The translations under genes and the position numbers were made by a program. Positions 27,156 through 35,619 of a stretch of 64,000 nucleotides of DNA are shown in pieces. Each line of letters begins with the position of its first letter. The first letter of the stretch is position 1. The DNA is from Rhodoblastus acidophilus (GTDB lineage Bacteria > Pseudomonadota > Alphaproteobacteria > Rhizobiales > Beijerinckiaceae): contig NZ_FYDG01000002.1 in assembly GCF_900187365.1 (NCBI RefSeq), forward strand, positions 124,001-188,000. Reading direction: 5' to 3'. The notes under the pieces are model-generated. The model had not been told where the DNA came from. It searched no databases and saw only the letters and a list, made by a program, of their open reading frames with translations.

Positions 27156-27169
27156 TTGACGGGGATCAA
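27156..27169 (+). promoter_or_regulatory. FNR/FixK-type box upstream of the hydroxylase-like operon
   Basis: TTGAC-GGGG-ATCAA, one mismatch from the FNR/FixK consensus TTGAT-N4-ATCAA, centred 100 nt before the 2Fe-2S subunit start and just after mocA. A class II arrangement would place -10 near 27192-27197 and the transcript start near 27204. A companion box lies before ubiT. Confidence 0.6.
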
Positions 27170-30977: not shown

Positions 30978-31547
30978 TCAGGCCTCGCCGCGCCATTGCG
31001 CGGCGGTGGGCTCGAACAGGCGCAGCAGATCGACCGCGCGCCGGGCGATCTGGTCGATAATGTCCGCGACGCTCTGCGGTTTTAAATAGAAGGCGGGCGC
31101 CGGCGGCATGATGATGGCGCCGGCTTCCGTCGCCGCCGTCATGGCGCGCAAATGGCCGAGATGCAGAGGCGTTTCGCGCGCCAGCAGGATCAGCGGCCGT
31201 CGCTCCTTCAAATGCACATCCGCCGCGCGCGTCAAAAGATTGTCGGCGAGGCAGTTGGCGATGGACGCCAGCGTGCGCATCGAGCAGGGCGCGACGATCA
31301 TACCGCGCGTCGGGAACGAACCCGAGGCGATGGTCGCGCCGATGCTGTCGATGTCATGCACTTTGCTGGCGCGTTCGCGCAGGCGCGACAGCGCGTCCGG
31401 CCCAACCTCCTCGCGCAGCGTGAGTTCCGCCGCGCGCGAAACCACCACATGCACGTCCGCGCCGCGTTCGTCGAGAATTTCAACGATGCGCAGGCCGATG
31501 GCCGCGCCCGAGGCGCCGCTCAATCCAACGACGACGCGCGGATTCAC
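30978..31547 (-). CDS. ubiX: Flavin prenyltransferase UbiX
   Basis: 189 residues. UbiX prenylates FMN to make prenyl-FMN, the cofactor of UbiD decarboxylases. Motifs: VVVGLSGASGAAIGLRIVEI at the N-terminus (FMN phosphate site), the central IVAPCSMRTLASIANCLADN, and RRPLILLARETPLHLGHLRA with the prenyl-phosphate-binding Arg/Glu. GTG at 31547 is the start; it overlaps the ubiD stop (GTGA), so ubiD and ubiX are coupled. It converges with the MarR gene. Confidence 0.95.
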   Translation of the reverse strand: MNPRVVVGLSGASGAAIGLRIVEILDERGADVHVVVSRAAELTLREEVGPDALSRLRERASKVHDIDSIGATIASGSFPTRGMIVAPCSMRTLASIANCLADNLLTRAADVHLKERRPLILLARETPLHLGHLRAMTAATEAGAIIMPPAPAFYLKPQSVADIIDQIARRAVDLLRLFEPTAAQWRGEA

Positions 31548-33067
31548 TTGACGCCGTCGCGCTTGAACCCCGCCATCACCTGCGGCCAGAGCGCGTCCAC
31601 CCGCGTCTTGACCTCCGGCGTGGTGTCGAGCTTCACGCCCCATTCCCTGTGCGTTTCCGGCCCGATCTTGTTGGTGGCGTCAATGCCGAGCTTGCCGCCG
31701 AGGCCCGATTCCGGCGAAGCGAAATCGAGATAGTCGATCGGCGTGTCCCTGATGACGGTGAGATCGCGCGAGGGATCCATGCGCGTCGCCAAGGCCCAGG
31801 CGACATCGTTCCAATCGCGGGTGTTGATGTCCTCGTCCACCACGATCACGGTTTTGGTGTAGTTGAACTGCGGCAACATGCCCCACAGTCCCATCATCAC
31901 CCGCCGCGCCTGCCCCGGATACGTCTTGCGGATCGCGACGATGGCCATGCGGTAGGAGCACGCCTCCGGCGGCAGCCAGACGTCGACGATTTCAGGCAAC
32001 TGCCGCTTCATGGTCGGCAGCGCCAGATCGTTCAGCACGCTGCCGATCACCGACGGCTCGTCCGGCGGGCGGCCGGTGAAGGTGCTGAGGTAAATCGGGT
32101 CGCGCCGCGTGGTGATCGCGCTTACGGTGAGCACCGGGAACTGCTCGACGCTGTTGTAATAGCCGGTGTGGTCGCCATAGGGACCCTCGGGCGCCGTCTC
32201 GGTCACGGAGACATGGCCCTCGATGACGATTTCGGCATCGGCGGGGATCATCATCGGCACGGTCAGCGCCTGCGCCACATGCGGGCGCTCGCCGCGCAGC
32301 ACGCCGGAGAACCGCAGTTCCGAAACGGTTTCGGGCAGCGGCAGCACGGCGGACAGAATGGTGGCGGGATCGACGCCGATGGCGATGGCGACCGGCATGT
32401 CCTTGCCCTGCTTGGCCCAGAGCCGGTGATGCGCCGCGCCGCCGCGATGCGCCAGCCAGCGCATGATCAGGCGATTCTTGCCGAGCACCTGCATGCGATA
32501 GACGCCGATATTGATCTTGGCGGTCTCGTCGGCGTCGGTGTCCGGCGGACGGGTGATCACCAGCCCCCAGGTGATCAGCGGCGCCGGCTCGCCGGGCCAG
32601 CAGGTCTGCACGGGAATCCGGCCGAGATCGACGTCGTCGCCCTTAAAAACCTCGGCCTGGCAGGACGGGCGGGAAATCACCTGCTGCCGGGTGGACAAAG
32701 CCGCCCGCACCATCGGCCAGCGGCTCATCGCGTCTTTAAAGCCATCGACCGGCGCGGGCTCGCGCAAGGCGGCGAGCATTTCGCCCAATTCGCCGATGCG
32801 CGACAAAGCGACGCCGAAGCCGGCGGCGACGCGCTCCTGCGTGCCGAACAGGTTTGTGAGCACCGGCATGGCGGCGGGGCCTGCGGGCGAAACAGCCTTG
32901 TCGAACATCAGGGCGGGGCCGCCCGCGACCAGGACGCGGCGGTGCAGCTCGGTCATGTCGTGAACGAGGCTGACCTTTTCGCCGACGCGTGCTAACAGAC
33001 GCTCCTGCTCAAGGTATTTGGCGAAGGCGCGAAGATCGCGGAAAGGCGGCAGTTCTCGAAAAGTCAT
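31544..33067 (-). CDS. ubiD: UbiD-family decarboxylase (3-polyprenyl-4-hydroxybenzoate carboxy-lyase)
   Basis: 507 residues. UbiD removes the carboxyl group from 3-polyprenyl-4-hydroxybenzoate using prenyl-FMN. Motifs: NINIGVYRMQVLGKNRLIMR-type prFMN/Mn region (KINIGVYRMQ, about 223), FSGVLRGERPHVAQALTVPM, EIVIEGHVSVTETAPEGPYG with the E-x-P-E catalytic glutamates, and SGLGGKLGIDATNKIGPET near the end, close to E. coli UbiD. ATG at 33067 with AGG upstream is used; a long open extension to 33697 is antisense to ubiT. It is divergent from ubiT across an 81-nt region holding an FNR-type palindrome. Adjacency to ubiX and ubiTUV supports the ubiquinone role. Confidence 0.93.
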   Translation of the reverse strand: MTFRELPPFRDLRAFAKYLEQERLLARVGEKVSLVHDMTELHRRVLVAGGPALMFDKAVSPAGPAAMPVLTNLFGTQERVAAGFGVALSRIGELGEMLAALREPAPVDGFKDAMSRWPMVRAALSTRQQVISRPSCQAEVFKGDDVDLGRIPVQTCWPGEPAPLITWGLVITRPPDTDADETAKINIGVYRMQVLGKNRLIMRWLAHRGGAAHHRLWAKQGKDMPVAIAIGVDPATILSAVLPLPETVSELRFSGVLRGERPHVAQALTVPMMIPADAEIVIEGHVSVTETAPEGPYGDHTGYYNSVEQFPVLTVSAITTRRDPIYLSTFTGRPPDEPSVIGSVLNDLALPTMKRQLPEIVDVWLPPEACSYRMAIVAIRKTYPGQARRVMMGLWGMLPQFNYTKTVIVVDEDINTRDWNDVAWALATRMDPSRDLTVIRDTPIDYLDFASPESGLGGKLGIDATNKIGPETHREWGVKLDTTPEVKTRVDALWPQVMAGFKRDGVK

Positions 33068-33100
33068 AACCTGTCGTGCTTGGAAAGCCGCGCCTTCGCA

Positions 33101-33114
33101 TTGACAAAAGTCAA
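33101..33114 (+). promoter_or_regulatory. FNR/FixK-type palindrome between ubiD and ubiT
   Basis: TTGAC-AAAA-GTCAA, a perfect 5-bp dyad with a 4-bp centre and the layout of FNR/FixK/Dnr sites (consensus TTGAT-N4-ATCAA). Its centre is 41 nt from the ubiT ATG and 40 nt from the ubiD ATG, so it could act on either side. E. coli ubiUVT is known to be FNR-controlled, which strengthens the reading. Confidence 0.65.
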
Positions 33115-33148
33115 TGTGACGCTGAACATTTTCTGATTTGGTGGGATA

Positions 33149-33703
33149 ATGTGGAACGCTAAAGACATCCCTCTTTTCCCCGCCGCCGGGGCCGCCGTGC
33201 TGCGATTCGCGCCGCTCACGCCCCTGTCGATGGCCGGCGCGCATCTGGTGAAGACCCTGGTCCAACGCCACCCCTCGCTGTTTTCGCGGCTGGGCGAGCA
33301 GGCGGAGAAGACCTTCCTGATCGACCCGACCGATCTGCCTTTCGCCTTCCGGCTGCAGCCGCATGGCGAGGCCCCCAGCCTTGAAGCCGTGCGCCGCGAG
33401 GACGCCGGCTTCTGGGACGCGCGCATCGGCGGCCCGCTCGCCGCGCTGCTCGGGCTGGTGCATGGCGTTTATGACGGCGACGCCCTGTTCTTCTCGCGCG
33501 ATCTGGTGATCGAGGGCGACACGGAAGCGGTGCTGGCCCTGCGCAACGCCATCGACAACGAGGAGATCGACCTCGCCTCCGAAGTCGCCGCCTTGTTCGG
33601 CCCGCTGGAACATGTCGCCTCGGCCCCCGCCCGGCGCGTTTCCTCGCTCGTCGGCGCCTGGTTCGGCGTCGCCCTGACCCGCGAAGACGAGAGCCACGCA
33701 TGA
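33149..33703 (+). CDS. ubiT: Anaerobic ubiquinone biosynthesis accessory factor UbiT (SCP2 domain)
   Basis: 184 residues with an SCP2/sterol-carrier lipid-binding domain: FLIDPTDLPFAFRLQPHGEA, IGGPLAALLGLVHGVYDGDA and LFFSRDLVIEGDTEAVLALR, in the order seen in E. coli UbiT (YhbT). UbiT binds the isoprenoid quinone intermediate for the O2-independent pathway, as UbiJ does in the aerobic one. ATG at 33149 with GGTGGG just upstream. Its stop overlaps the ubiU start by 4 nt. Confidence 0.9.
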   Translation: MWNAKDIPLFPAAGAAVLRFAPLTPLSMAGAHLVKTLVQRHPSLFSRLGEQAEKTFLIDPTDLPFAFRLQPHGEAPSLEAVRREDAGFWDARIGGPLAALLGLVHGVYDGDALFFSRDLVIEGDTEAVLALRNAIDNEEIDLASEVAALFGPLEHVASAPARRVSSLVGAWFGVALTREDESHA

Positions 33704-34692
33704 GCCGCCCCCAGCTTGAACTGGTCTGCCCCGCCGGCACGCCCGCGGCCTTCCGCGCGGCGATCGACGCCGGCGCCCACACGGTCTATTGCGGCTTTAA
33801 CGACGAAACCAACGCCCGCAATTTCCCCGGCCTGAATTTCTCCGCCGACGAACTGGCGACCTCGATCGCCTACGCCCACAAGAAGGGCGCGCATGCGCTG
33901 GTCGCCATCAACACGTTTCCGCGCGCCGGCGCGGTCGAACTGTGGCACAGGCGCGTCGACGACGCCGCGCGTCTCCGCGCCGATGCGGTGATCCTCGCCG
34001 ACATCGGCCTGCTGGATTACGCCTCGAAAAAACACCCCGACCTGCGGCTGCATCTGTCGGTGCAGGCGGCGGCGGCCAACGCCGACGCGATTCGCTTCTA
34101 CGCCAAGGCCTTCGGCGTCAAGCGCGTGGTGCTGCCGCGCGTGCTGACCGTGCAGGAAATCGCGGCTGTGAACCGCGACATCGAAATCGAGACCGAAGTG
34201 TTCATCTTCGGCGGGTTGTGCGTGATGGCGGAAGGGCGCTGCTCGCTGTCCTCCTACGCCACCGGCAAATCGCCCAATATGAACGGCGCCTGCTCGCCGG
34301 CGAGTCATGTCGAATATCGCGAGGAGGACGGCGATCTCGTGTCGCGCCTCGGCGGCTTCGCCATCCATCGCGTGCATGCCGGCGAGGCCGCGCCCTACCC
34401 CACTTTGTGCAAGGGCTGCTTTGAAGCGGGCGACTACAAAGGCCATGTGTTCGAGGATCCGTCGAGCCTCGACGCCGCCGAACTCATCCCGCAACTAGCC
34501 GAAGCCGGCGTCACCGCGCTGAAGATCGAGGGACGGCAGCGCAGCCGTTCCTACACGGAATCGGTGGTGCGCAACTTCCGCAAGGCCGTGGACGATTACG
34601 CGGCGGGCCGTCCGGTCGTCGCCGGCGCCCTGCGCGGCCTGACCGAGGGCCAGACCACCACCGCAGGCTCGTATCGCAAGACGTGGCGTTGA
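33700..34692 (+). CDS. ubiU: O2-independent ubiquinone hydroxylase subunit UbiU (peptidase U32 family)
   Basis: 330 residues, U32-peptidase-like fold, starting ELVCPAGTPAAFRAAIDAGA. The four cysteines that ligate [4Fe-4S] in E. coli UbiU are present at matching spacing: GGLCVMAEGRC (two, 6 residues between them), NMNGACSP and LCKGCFE. With UbiV it hydroxylates the quinone ring without O2; the oxygen comes from prephenate in E. coli. Coupled to ubiT by ATGA overlap and followed by ubiV 18 nt later. Confidence 0.95.
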   Translation: MSRPQLELVCPAGTPAAFRAAIDAGAHTVYCGFNDETNARNFPGLNFSADELATSIAYAHKKGAHALVAINTFPRAGAVELWHRRVDDAARLRADAVILADIGLLDYASKKHPDLRLHLSVQAAAANADAIRFYAKAFGVKRVVLPRVLTVQEIAAVNRDIEIETEVFIFGGLCVMAEGRCSLSSYATGKSPNMNGACSPASHVEYREEDGDLVSRLGGFAIHRVHAGEAAPYPTLCKGCFEAGDYKGHVFEDPSSLDAAELIPQLAEAGVTALKIEGRQRSRSYTESVVRNFRKAVDDYAAGRPVVAGALRGLTEGQTTTAGSYRKTWR

Positions 34693-34710: not shown

Positions 34711-35619
34711 ATGACCAAGAATTTCTCGCTGACTGTTGGACCGCTGCAGTTCAACTGGAGCGCCGACGCTTTTTCCGATTTCTACGCCCGGATCGCCGAC
34801 GAGGCGCCGGTGGATCGCGTGGTGATCGGCGAAACCGTCTGCTCCAAGCGCACGCCGTTCTATGAGGACCGCATCCCCGCCGCCATCGAGCGGCTGCAGG
34901 CCGGCGGCAAGACCGTCGTGCTCGGTTCGCTCGGCATGGTGACGCTGGAGCGCGAAAAGCGCGCCGCGCGCGAACTGTTCGAGCAGACCGCGCTTGAGGT
35001 CGAGATCAACGATCTCACGCTGATGAACTGGGCGCGCCCGCCCTTCTCCATCGGGCCGCTGATCAACGTCTATAATGAGGCGACGCTGGCGTACCTTGCC
35101 GGACAGGGCGCCAAACTGTTCTGCCTGCCGCCGGAAATCCCGTTCGCCTCGGTGGAAAAGCTGGCTCACGCCGCGAACCAATGCGACGCCGTGGCGGAAA
35201 TCTGGGCCTATGGCCGGATTCCGCTGGCCATTTCCGCCCGCTGCTATCACGCCCGCGTGCATGGCCTGAGCAAGGATTCTTGTCAGTTCGTCTGCGACAA
35301 GGATCCGGACGGGTTGACGGTCAACACGCTCGAAGGCCAGCAATTCCTGGCGGTCAACGGCGTGCAGACCATGTCGCAGAATTTTTGTAACCTGATCGCC
35401 GACCTGGACAAGCTGGCGTCGGCGGGCGTCAAGTCGCTGCGGTTGTCGCCCCACACCGGCGATTTCGTCGCCGTTTGCAAGACTTTCGCCGACGTGGCCT
35501 CCGGCGTTATGTCCGGCGCGGATGGTCTGGCGCGGCTGAAGGCGGCGGCGCCGGACGCGACCTTCTCCAACGGCTTTTTGTTCGGGTCGTGCGGCGCGGC
35601 GGAGCTGACGCCCGCCTGA
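34711..35619 (+). CDS. ubiV: O2-independent ubiquinone hydroxylase subunit UbiV (peptidase U32 family)
   Basis: 302 residues, partner of UbiU. Opens FSLTVGPLQFNWSADAFSDF, with VIGETVCSKRTPF (the first ligand) and ARCYHARVHGLSKDSCQFVC (three more), matching the C39, C180, C193, C197 pattern of E. coli UbiV. The end SNGFLFGSCGAAEL follows family form. ubiT-ubiU-ubiV is thus complete and intact, so the organism should make ubiquinone under low or no oxygen. A ThDP enzyme follows after 16 nt. Confidence 0.95.
   Translation: MTKNFSLTVGPLQFNWSADAFSDFYARIADEAPVDRVVIGETVCSKRTPFYEDRIPAAIERLQAGGKTVVLGSLGMVTLEREKRAARELFEQTALEVEINDLTLMNWARPPFSIGPLINVYNEATLAYLAGQGAKLFCLPPEIPFASVEKLAHAANQCDAVAEIWAYGRIPLAISARCYHARVHGLSKDSCQFVCDKDPDGLTVNTLEGQQFLAVNGVQTMSQNFCNLIADLDKLASAGVKSLRLSPHTGDFVAVCKTFADVASGVMSGADGLARLKAAAPDATFSNGFLFGSCGAAELTPA

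Follow-up and report, generated by a model that had tools for sequence, protein, structure and literature searches.

The divergently oriented ubiD and ubiT genes in the 64-kb stretch of DNA analyzed here (hereafter the window) are separated by an intergenic gap of 81 nt that contains, at positions 33101-33114, the palindrome TTGACAAAAGTCAA. This arrangement raises the question of whether a single site serves both operons and, if so, which protein is likely to bind to it and where transcription would start in such a short gap. The first-pass annotation had described the sequence as an FNR-type dyad, TTGAC-AAAA-GTCAA, located nearly midway between two divergent starts and possibly switching both sides. 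Its letters and coordinates proved exact, and the distances from the dyad center (33107.5) to the A's of the ubiD ATG (33067, minus strand) and the ubiT ATG (33149) are 40.5 and 41.5 nt.

The ubiD-ubiT locus and its palindrome

The identities of the genes are established by the family matches given in Table 1. No protein of the genome other than UbiD matches PF01977, and UbiD scores 620 of 788 bits, below the cut-off, against the sole ubiquinone decarboxylase equivalog; because the gene is present in a single copy, some aerobic expression may be needed. The UbiX family match begins at residue 36 of the listed open reading frame, the true start of which may be internal. The closest named relatives of UbiU come from Rhodoblastus acidophilus and R. 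sphagnicola (93-94% identity). No match to COQ7 was detected in the genome, a single Ubi hydroxylase scores over the cut-off, and positions 32500-34000 contain no Rfam RNA at the gathering threshold.

The inverted repeat extends past the core. With 10-nt arms (33096-33105 and 33110-33119) and one mismatch, it is longer than the first-pass annotation reported, and the G/C just beyond the core is kept on both sides in the 19 Rhodoblastus-like loci described below.

Table 1. Genes and regulatory features of the ubiX-ubiD and ubiT-ubiU-ubiV locus (window coordinates)
Feature	Coordinates	Strand	Basis
ubiT	33149-33703	+	NF047962 equivalog above cut-off; SCP2 PF02036
ubiU	33700-34692	+	NF047963 equivalog above cut-off
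ubiV	34711-35619	+	NF047965 equivalog above cut-off
ubiD	31544-33067	-	PF01977, PF20695, PF20696; TIGR00148 subfamily above cut-off
ubiX	30978-31643	-	NF004685 and TIGR00421 subfamilies above cut-off
FNR-type dyad TTGAC-N4-GTCAA, core operator	33101-33114		Matrix, background counts, conservation in relatives
Longer inverted repeat TCGCATTGAC-AAAA-GTCAATGTGA	33096-33119		9/10 pairs complementary; flanking G/C conservation
Extended -10-like element TG-A-TTTGGT for ubiT	33134-33142	+	Hexamer 22 nt past the dyad; weak match
CACGAC, ubiD side	33073-33078	-	22 nt from the dyad; ambiguous: degenerate -10 or, in relatives, Shine-Dalgarno-like place
Predicted ubiT transcript start	33148-33149	+	Predicted from distance to dyad center (40.5-41.5 nt) and analogy with S. 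granuli ubiT
Predicted ubiD transcript start	33066-33067	-	Predicted from distance to dyad center (40.5-41.5 nt)

FNR-type sites in the genome and the candidate regulator

The exact dyad occurs once in the window, and when one mismatch is allowed there are 3 matches compared to 0.70 expected, a number reached in 3 of 100 shuffles. The first-pass annotation had called for a scan with an FNR matrix. The matrix used here was derived from 25 of the 28 R. sphaeroides FnrL sites in the ChIP part of Table 2 of PMC2908626, with two poor sites and the R. sphaeroides ubiD site excluded. Scanned in the 64-kb window, the dyad scores 17.18 bits, above the shuffled background: dinucleotide shuffles (n = 40) yield equal or better scores at a mean of 0.025 per 64 kb, or about 3e-5 per 81-nt gap. 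The dyad ranks second in the window, behind a site at 27156. This top-ranking FNR-type site, TTGACGGGGATCAA (27156-27169; 19.0 bits), has its center 100.5 nt ahead of 27263, the predicted start of a gene for a xanthine-dehydrogenase-type small subunit, so named from reading the sequence.

Genome-wide, TTGACN4GTCAA is found in 9 places compared to 2 for the reversed control, and the more permissive TTGAYN4RTCAA is found 40 times in the 4.7-Mb genome compared to 3. Thirty-six of these 40 sites lie outside predicted genes; non-genic positions, according to the same gene caller, make up 9% of the window and 17% of 15 other loci of this genome. For 27 of the 36 non-genic sites, a predicted gene start is located within 500 nt and points away from the site. 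The caller, a crude codon-usage method trained on nine window genes, left the other 9 without a facing gene within that distance and placed the ubiD start too far in; it is good for telling inside from outside and poor for exact starts. Within this accuracy, none of the 36 except the ubiD-ubiT site has a predicted start at a distance of 40-43 nt, which counts against the class II arrangement proposed below. A uniform -10 element at offset 22 was not seen by eye across the 36 non-genic sites, so that the class II assignment made below draws on relatives.

Seven proteins encoded in the genome match PF13545 over the cut-off. One of them, the product of the FNR-like gene at L078:1589-2389 (also present in L086), contains the helix LTVETVSRMM and an N-terminal C-x2-C-x7-C cluster, which presumably marks an Fe-S oxygen sensor and which, by eye, is found in this protein alone among the seven. 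Its best NCBIfam match is FnrL, at 169 of 300 bits; this is below the cut-off, and the protein is thus FNR/FnrL-like rather than a named equivalog. It also matches PDB chains of an FNR type regulator (residues 41-254) and of FixK2 (residues 75-243), with the recognition helix included, and a site of the same type is located 81.5 nt before the predicted start of its gene. The dyad scores above background in a genome that encodes an FNR/FnrL-like protein with a cysteine cluster and an FNR-like recognition helix. The matrix, the genome-wide enrichment, the presence of this regulator gene and the conservation in alphaproteobacteria described below all agree with the original FNR-type reading, and the dyad is very probably the binding site of an oxygen-sensing FNR-type regulator.

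The genes that face sites of this type include, besides the FNR-like gene itself, hemN/hemH, regA, ccoN, ubiG and a bchI-like gene. When 20 hand-chosen facing proteins were compared with NCBIfam, matches over the cut-off were obtained for RegA, UbiG, ferrochelatase, HemN, CcoN, two Grx4, PurL, PurB, the N-terminal part of DNA polymerase III alpha, a GGDEF domain and a PAS domain; the BchI-like protein fell just under the cut-off and the remaining proteins gave weaker matches or none. Several of these genes we take to be classical FNR targets, with the purine genes and the polymerase not obviously belonging there. The TTGAC-N4-GTCAA site at ubiG, also a ubiquinone gene (L145:1501-1514), is centered 35.5 nt before the predicted ubiG start; in the other direction, at 74.5 nt from the center, begins a divergent gene resembling aspartate kinase. 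Elsewhere, a gene encoding a fusion of a Crp/Fnr-type regulator with GGDEF (L131:155-1402, minus strand) has a TTGACTATGGTCAA site upstream and a chemotaxis-receptor-like gene divergent from it.

Conservation, promoter geometry and start codons among relatives

The locus was compared with its counterparts in 99 loci, 69 named and 30 from a family search (the window's own included). Seven of these were dropped as having no usable divergent ubiD; 92 loci with divergent ubiD and ubiT within 400 nt passed the filters (93 with the window) and represent 83 distinct gaps. A perfect 10/10 site is present in 44 of the 83, namely in 16 of 19 Rhodoblastus-like loci (UbiT identity of at least 64%, window included; several are MAGs under other names), in 23 of 26 hand-picked Rhodobacteraceae-like loci and in 5 of the 38 others. 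Counted among these 38 rather than in the Rhodobacteraceae-like set are four loci that by name belong to the same family, L019 and L023 (Paracoccus) and L038 and L039 (Leisingera); their sites are 9/10 and 8/10, and their ubiT side likewise has TA at offset 22. The divergent ubiD-ubiT gap holds a single FNR-type site, and sequence comparison establishes both the conservation and the spacing of this site. In many other gaps, variant Crp/Fnr dyads occupy the same place, such as TTGTTC..GCTCAA of the Bradyrhizobium type and TTGC....GCGCAA in several family members (the variant half-sites are carried by L048, L052-L064, which are Bradyrhizobium-type, and several of L115-L124), suggesting that the regulator changed while the position of the operator stayed fixed.

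Several individual loci show peculiarities. The MAG Rhodoblastus sp. BP08 has two divergent ubiD-ubiT loci (L007 and L067), both with the right half-site GTTAA instead of GTCAA. In Ruegeria sp. HKCCD8929 (L022), a TGA appears close to the 5' end of ubiD, which aligns only in part and is probably a pseudogene; the adjoining FNR-type site is intact. In 17 of the 26 Rhodobacteraceae-like loci (L014, L016, L017, L020, L026-L028, L030 and others), ubiD has ATT where the others read ATG, ATC, TTG, GTT or GGT. Amino acids in this group are conserved from the codon after the ATT onward and much less before it. Of the 17, 14 are preceded by a GGAG at a distance of at most 16 nt; in 8 of the 17 a stop codon is encountered upstream before any ATG, GTG or TTG, whereas in the remaining 9 an in-frame TTG or GTG lies 12-20 codons ahead of the ATT. 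Judging from these patterns, the 17 ubiD genes probably use an AUU start codon, and our start assignment is wrong for many Rhodobacteraceae-like ubiD genes.

In the Rhodoblastus-like set, the dyad center is 40.5-42.5 nt from the ubiD start in all 19 distinct loci and 40.5-43.5 nt from the ubiT start in 17. The two exceptions are strains of R. acidophilus (L001 and L096), in both of which a structured repeat of about 120 nt separates the dyad from ubiT, just past a TCTGA motif; the gap measures 201 nt in R. acidophilus and 81 nt in R. sphagnicola. The repeat is not found in the ubiT promoter of R. sphagnicola; genome-wide, it has 42 matches in R. acidophilus DSM 142 and 2 in R. acidophilus MO, along with 22 in R. 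sphagnicola and 0 in the window's genome. Class I FNR positions lie farther from the transcript start. With the dyad center 41 nt from both start codons, such positions would put the transcript start inside the genes, so that only class II would be possible for an FNR-type activator. Class II activation at a spacing of 40.5/41.5 nt would, in turn, put the first base of the transcript at the start codon or no more than about 2 nt away from it, too close for a leader in either direction.

The -10 elements were compared at offsets counted from the dyad. All 26 Rhodobacteraceae-like loci have TA 22-23 nt past the dyad on the ubiT side (permutation p = 0.006 anywhere); their ubiD side has a T at 22 (20 of 26), an A at 23 (23 of 26) and TG at 19-20 (18 of 26; p = 0.085). 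This is the layout that a two-sided class II promoter would have, clear on the ubiT side and less clear on the ubiD side. On the ubiT side of the Rhodoblastus-like loci, 18 of 19 keep TG at 19-20 and 17 of 19 keep T at 22, but the hexamer makes a poor -10 element: 22 is the best offset, with a mean score of -0.14 bits (permutation p = 0.015 there, 0.43 anywhere). On their ubiD side, offset 32 scores best instead of 22 (p = 0.04 there, 0.85 anywhere), and the second base of the hexamer is A in 19 of 19. In the leaderless-type loci of this set, TA occurs at 22 in 0 of 17 and at 24 in 8 of 17; with TA at 24 instead of 22, the transcript start could fall past the ATG. The -10 place on the ubiD side is often occupied by an AGGAG-like stretch, with a mean Shine-Dalgarno energy of -6.6 kcal/mol, which argues for a ubiD leader. 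A consensus promoter scan of 32950-33300 gave a single match, TGAACA-16-GATAAT (33123-33150, plus strand), which overlaps the ubiT ATG, does not fit the dyad and is given no weight; there was no promoter-like match on the minus strand of this interval. Most alphaproteobacterial promoters in one study are without the -7 T (PMC8407463, as far as the available text goes).

The position of the ubiT start relative to the dyad is bimodal. The start was taken as the in-frame ATG, GTG or TTG nearest to the protein alignment, a direct or nearly direct assignment for the Rhodoblastus-like set. Among the 83 loci, it is located at +33 to +36 past the dyad in 33 (10 of which, nine Bradyrhizobium-type loci and L109, are less certain, the assignment being 3-6 codons off the alignment), at +37 in 1 (L043, where a further ATG lies at +34), between +46 and +90 in 43 and elsewhere in 5, with none found in 1; no start falls at +38 to +45. 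The 62 representatives with less than 75% core identity include 23 close starts, 1 between, 34 far starts and 4 of the rest. The close group of 33 uses ATG in 29 loci and GTG in 4, with a median Shine-Dalgarno energy of -3.1 kcal/mol, and the far group of 43 uses TTG in 19, ATG in 17 and GTG in 7, with a median of -7.3 kcal/mol; this split is what leaderless as opposed to led messages predict. TA at offset 22 is present in 2 of 33 loci of the close group versus 39 of 43 of the far group, a scarcity that speaks against the leaderless reading and suggests a different or displaced -10 element in the former, and TA at 24 is found in 12 of 34 close-start loci.

A proposed shared class II operator, its alternatives and its relatives

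We consider it probable that the dyad is an FNR-type operator for two-way class II activation in a gap of minimal size. The regulator would probably be the FNR/FnrL-like protein of L078, proposed here as the bound protein from its sequence features. Without oxygen, a single binding event centered about 41 nt before the transcript start would recruit RNA polymerase in both directions, leading to the transcription of ubiT-ubiU-ubiV (oxygen-independent ring hydroxylation) rightward and of ubiD-ubiX (decarboxylation) leftward. In the window and in its Rhodoblastus-like relatives, the gap would have shrunk to the minimum, with about 6 nt between each start and its -10 element and 22 nt between each -10 element and the dyad, such that ubiT, and perhaps ubiD, might be transcribed from the start codon itself. 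Activation, the transcript starts and leaderless translation are what we infer here from sequence.

A similar system is documented in R. sphaeroides, where one FnrL-bound site is located between RSP0466-4 and RSP0467-8 (ubiD) and both are activated (ChIP-chip and expression, Table 2 of PMC2908626); by analogy, these data support the suggestion of the first-pass annotation that one site may switch both sides. The same R. sphaeroides site is given as a CrpK target in PMC4263372. As in the window, the listed divergent pair consists of ubiD and a lipid-carrier/U32 operon, which we equate with ubiT-ubiU-ubiV, with a single FNR-type site between them (PMC2908626); the site itself differs, being TTGATgtagGTCAA. 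A leader would fit in front of most genes in the 26 Rhodobacteraceae-like loci read here, whereas in the window the two start codons are about 41 nt from the center. For R. capsulatus, Table 2 of PMC4634722 lists an FnrL site and gives ubiD as not differentially expressed, and the available text of PMC10626278 reports that ubiD-X and ubiU-V mutants fail only anaerobically, a phenotype that fits two-sided activation.

Further parallels are found in other proteobacteria. The Fnr/Dnr sites nirS-nosR2 and hemA3-dnrE of Dinoroseobacter shibae also combine one dyad with two divergent genes, the hemA3-dnrE dyad being 41.5 and 39.5 nt from the transcript starts; these are, however, denitrification and heme genes, and a start codon at the transcript start is not described in the available text (PMC5398030). 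In Sphingopyxis granuli TFA, ubiTUV has a class II Fnr box, centered at -40.5 from the transcript start for ubiT (Table 1 of PMC7713065), whereas neither a shared ubiD side nor a leaderless message is described in the accessible part of that paper; the induction of ubiU is lost in a narG mutant as well, and direct control by Fnr was deduced by the authors from the box (PMC7713065). The parallel with E. coli drawn in the first-pass annotation is borne out by published Fnr control of ubiUV and ubiT, the same pathway, although in E. coli ubiT is divergent from ubiUV instead of ubiD, and there are two separate imperfect Fnr sites (PMC10470549, available text).

Several other readings of the site were weighed. 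That the dyad is a chance palindrome, or merely a -35 element, has negligible probability: TTGACA does equal the -35 consensus, but the two-sided symmetry, the conservation across families and the enrichment of the full dyad in the genome speak against both. Chance is rejected on the enrichment and on the matrix scores compared with shuffles, and a plain -35 box on the consensus scan, which pairs TTGACA with no -10 element at 16-18 nt. It is quite unlikely that the main binder is another protein of the Crp/Fnr family, of the FixK, Dnr, NnrR or CrpK type, instead of the FNR-like one. Six PF13545 proteins besides the latter might bind, CrpK shares the R. sphaeroides site (PMC4263372), Dufour et al. 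place the U32 and lipid-carrier families under DNR (Table 1 of PMC2908626), and half-sites differ at the same place in other lineages; yet TTGAC/T-N4-A/GTCAA is the FnrL site type in PMC2908626, and both the site upstream of the FNR-like gene itself and the restriction of the cysteine cluster to its product point to this protein. Activation of ubiT-ubiU-ubiV only, with ubiD-ubiX relying on a separate promoter and carrying a normal leader, and with the dyad neutral or inhibitory toward it, is unlikely. The AGGAG-like stretch with its pairing energy and the lack of a -10 peak at 22 on the ubiD side would fit such an arrangement, as would a possible aerobic requirement for the single-copy UbiD and the R. 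capsulatus expression data (PMC4634722); it is opposed by the activation of R. sphaeroides ubiD from the common site (PMC2908626), by the constant ubiD spacing in 19 of 19 loci and by the lack of a minus-strand promoter-like match at 32950-33300.

The start codons might also coincide with the predicted transcript starts by chance, with the real transcripts beginning elsewhere and carrying leaders, a possibility that falls somewhat short of even. It is favored by the weak -10 element of the Rhodoblastus-like loci, by GTG as the ubiT start in 4 of the 19 (all 171 leaderless mRNAs reported for S. meliloti in the available text of PMC3616915 start with AUG) and by a possible Shine-Dalgarno sequence before the window's ubiT (pairing of -7.4 kcal/mol in the 20 nt before the start). 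The bimodal distribution of ubiT starts (1 of 83 at +37 to +45) and the split in start codons and Shine-Dalgarno strength point the other way. Leaderless mRNAs are on record in the class, namely those of S. meliloti and that of acuR in R. sphaeroides (PMC3017554, available text). For the class II operator preferred here, we give a leaderless ubiT message about an even chance; leaderless messages for both ubiT and ubiD appear possible and on the doubtful side. A wider scenario is offered tentatively, at a little under even confidence: a minimal two-way promoter from which both operons are transcribed starting at the first base of the start codon, with ubiT having switched between leaderless and led messages several times across alphaproteobacteria while the dyad stayed fixed and nothing occurs in between, and with R. 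acidophilus ubiT having once gained a leader of about 120 nt through insertion of an interspersed repeat. A literature search weighted toward open access found no title on leaderless ubiT or ubiD.

A shared FnrL operator of ubiD and the U32/lipid-carrier operon has already been published, and the present locus is a further example with different geometry. The comparison extends this FnrL target to Rhodoblastus-like purple bacteria and reveals a shared ubiD-ubiT operator that is conserved in many of the sampled alphaproteobacteria. If the leaderless reading is true, close strains with and without a ubiT leader would exist at one regulated promoter, and would provide a natural test of the coupling among oxygen control, promoter geometry and the choice of the translation start.
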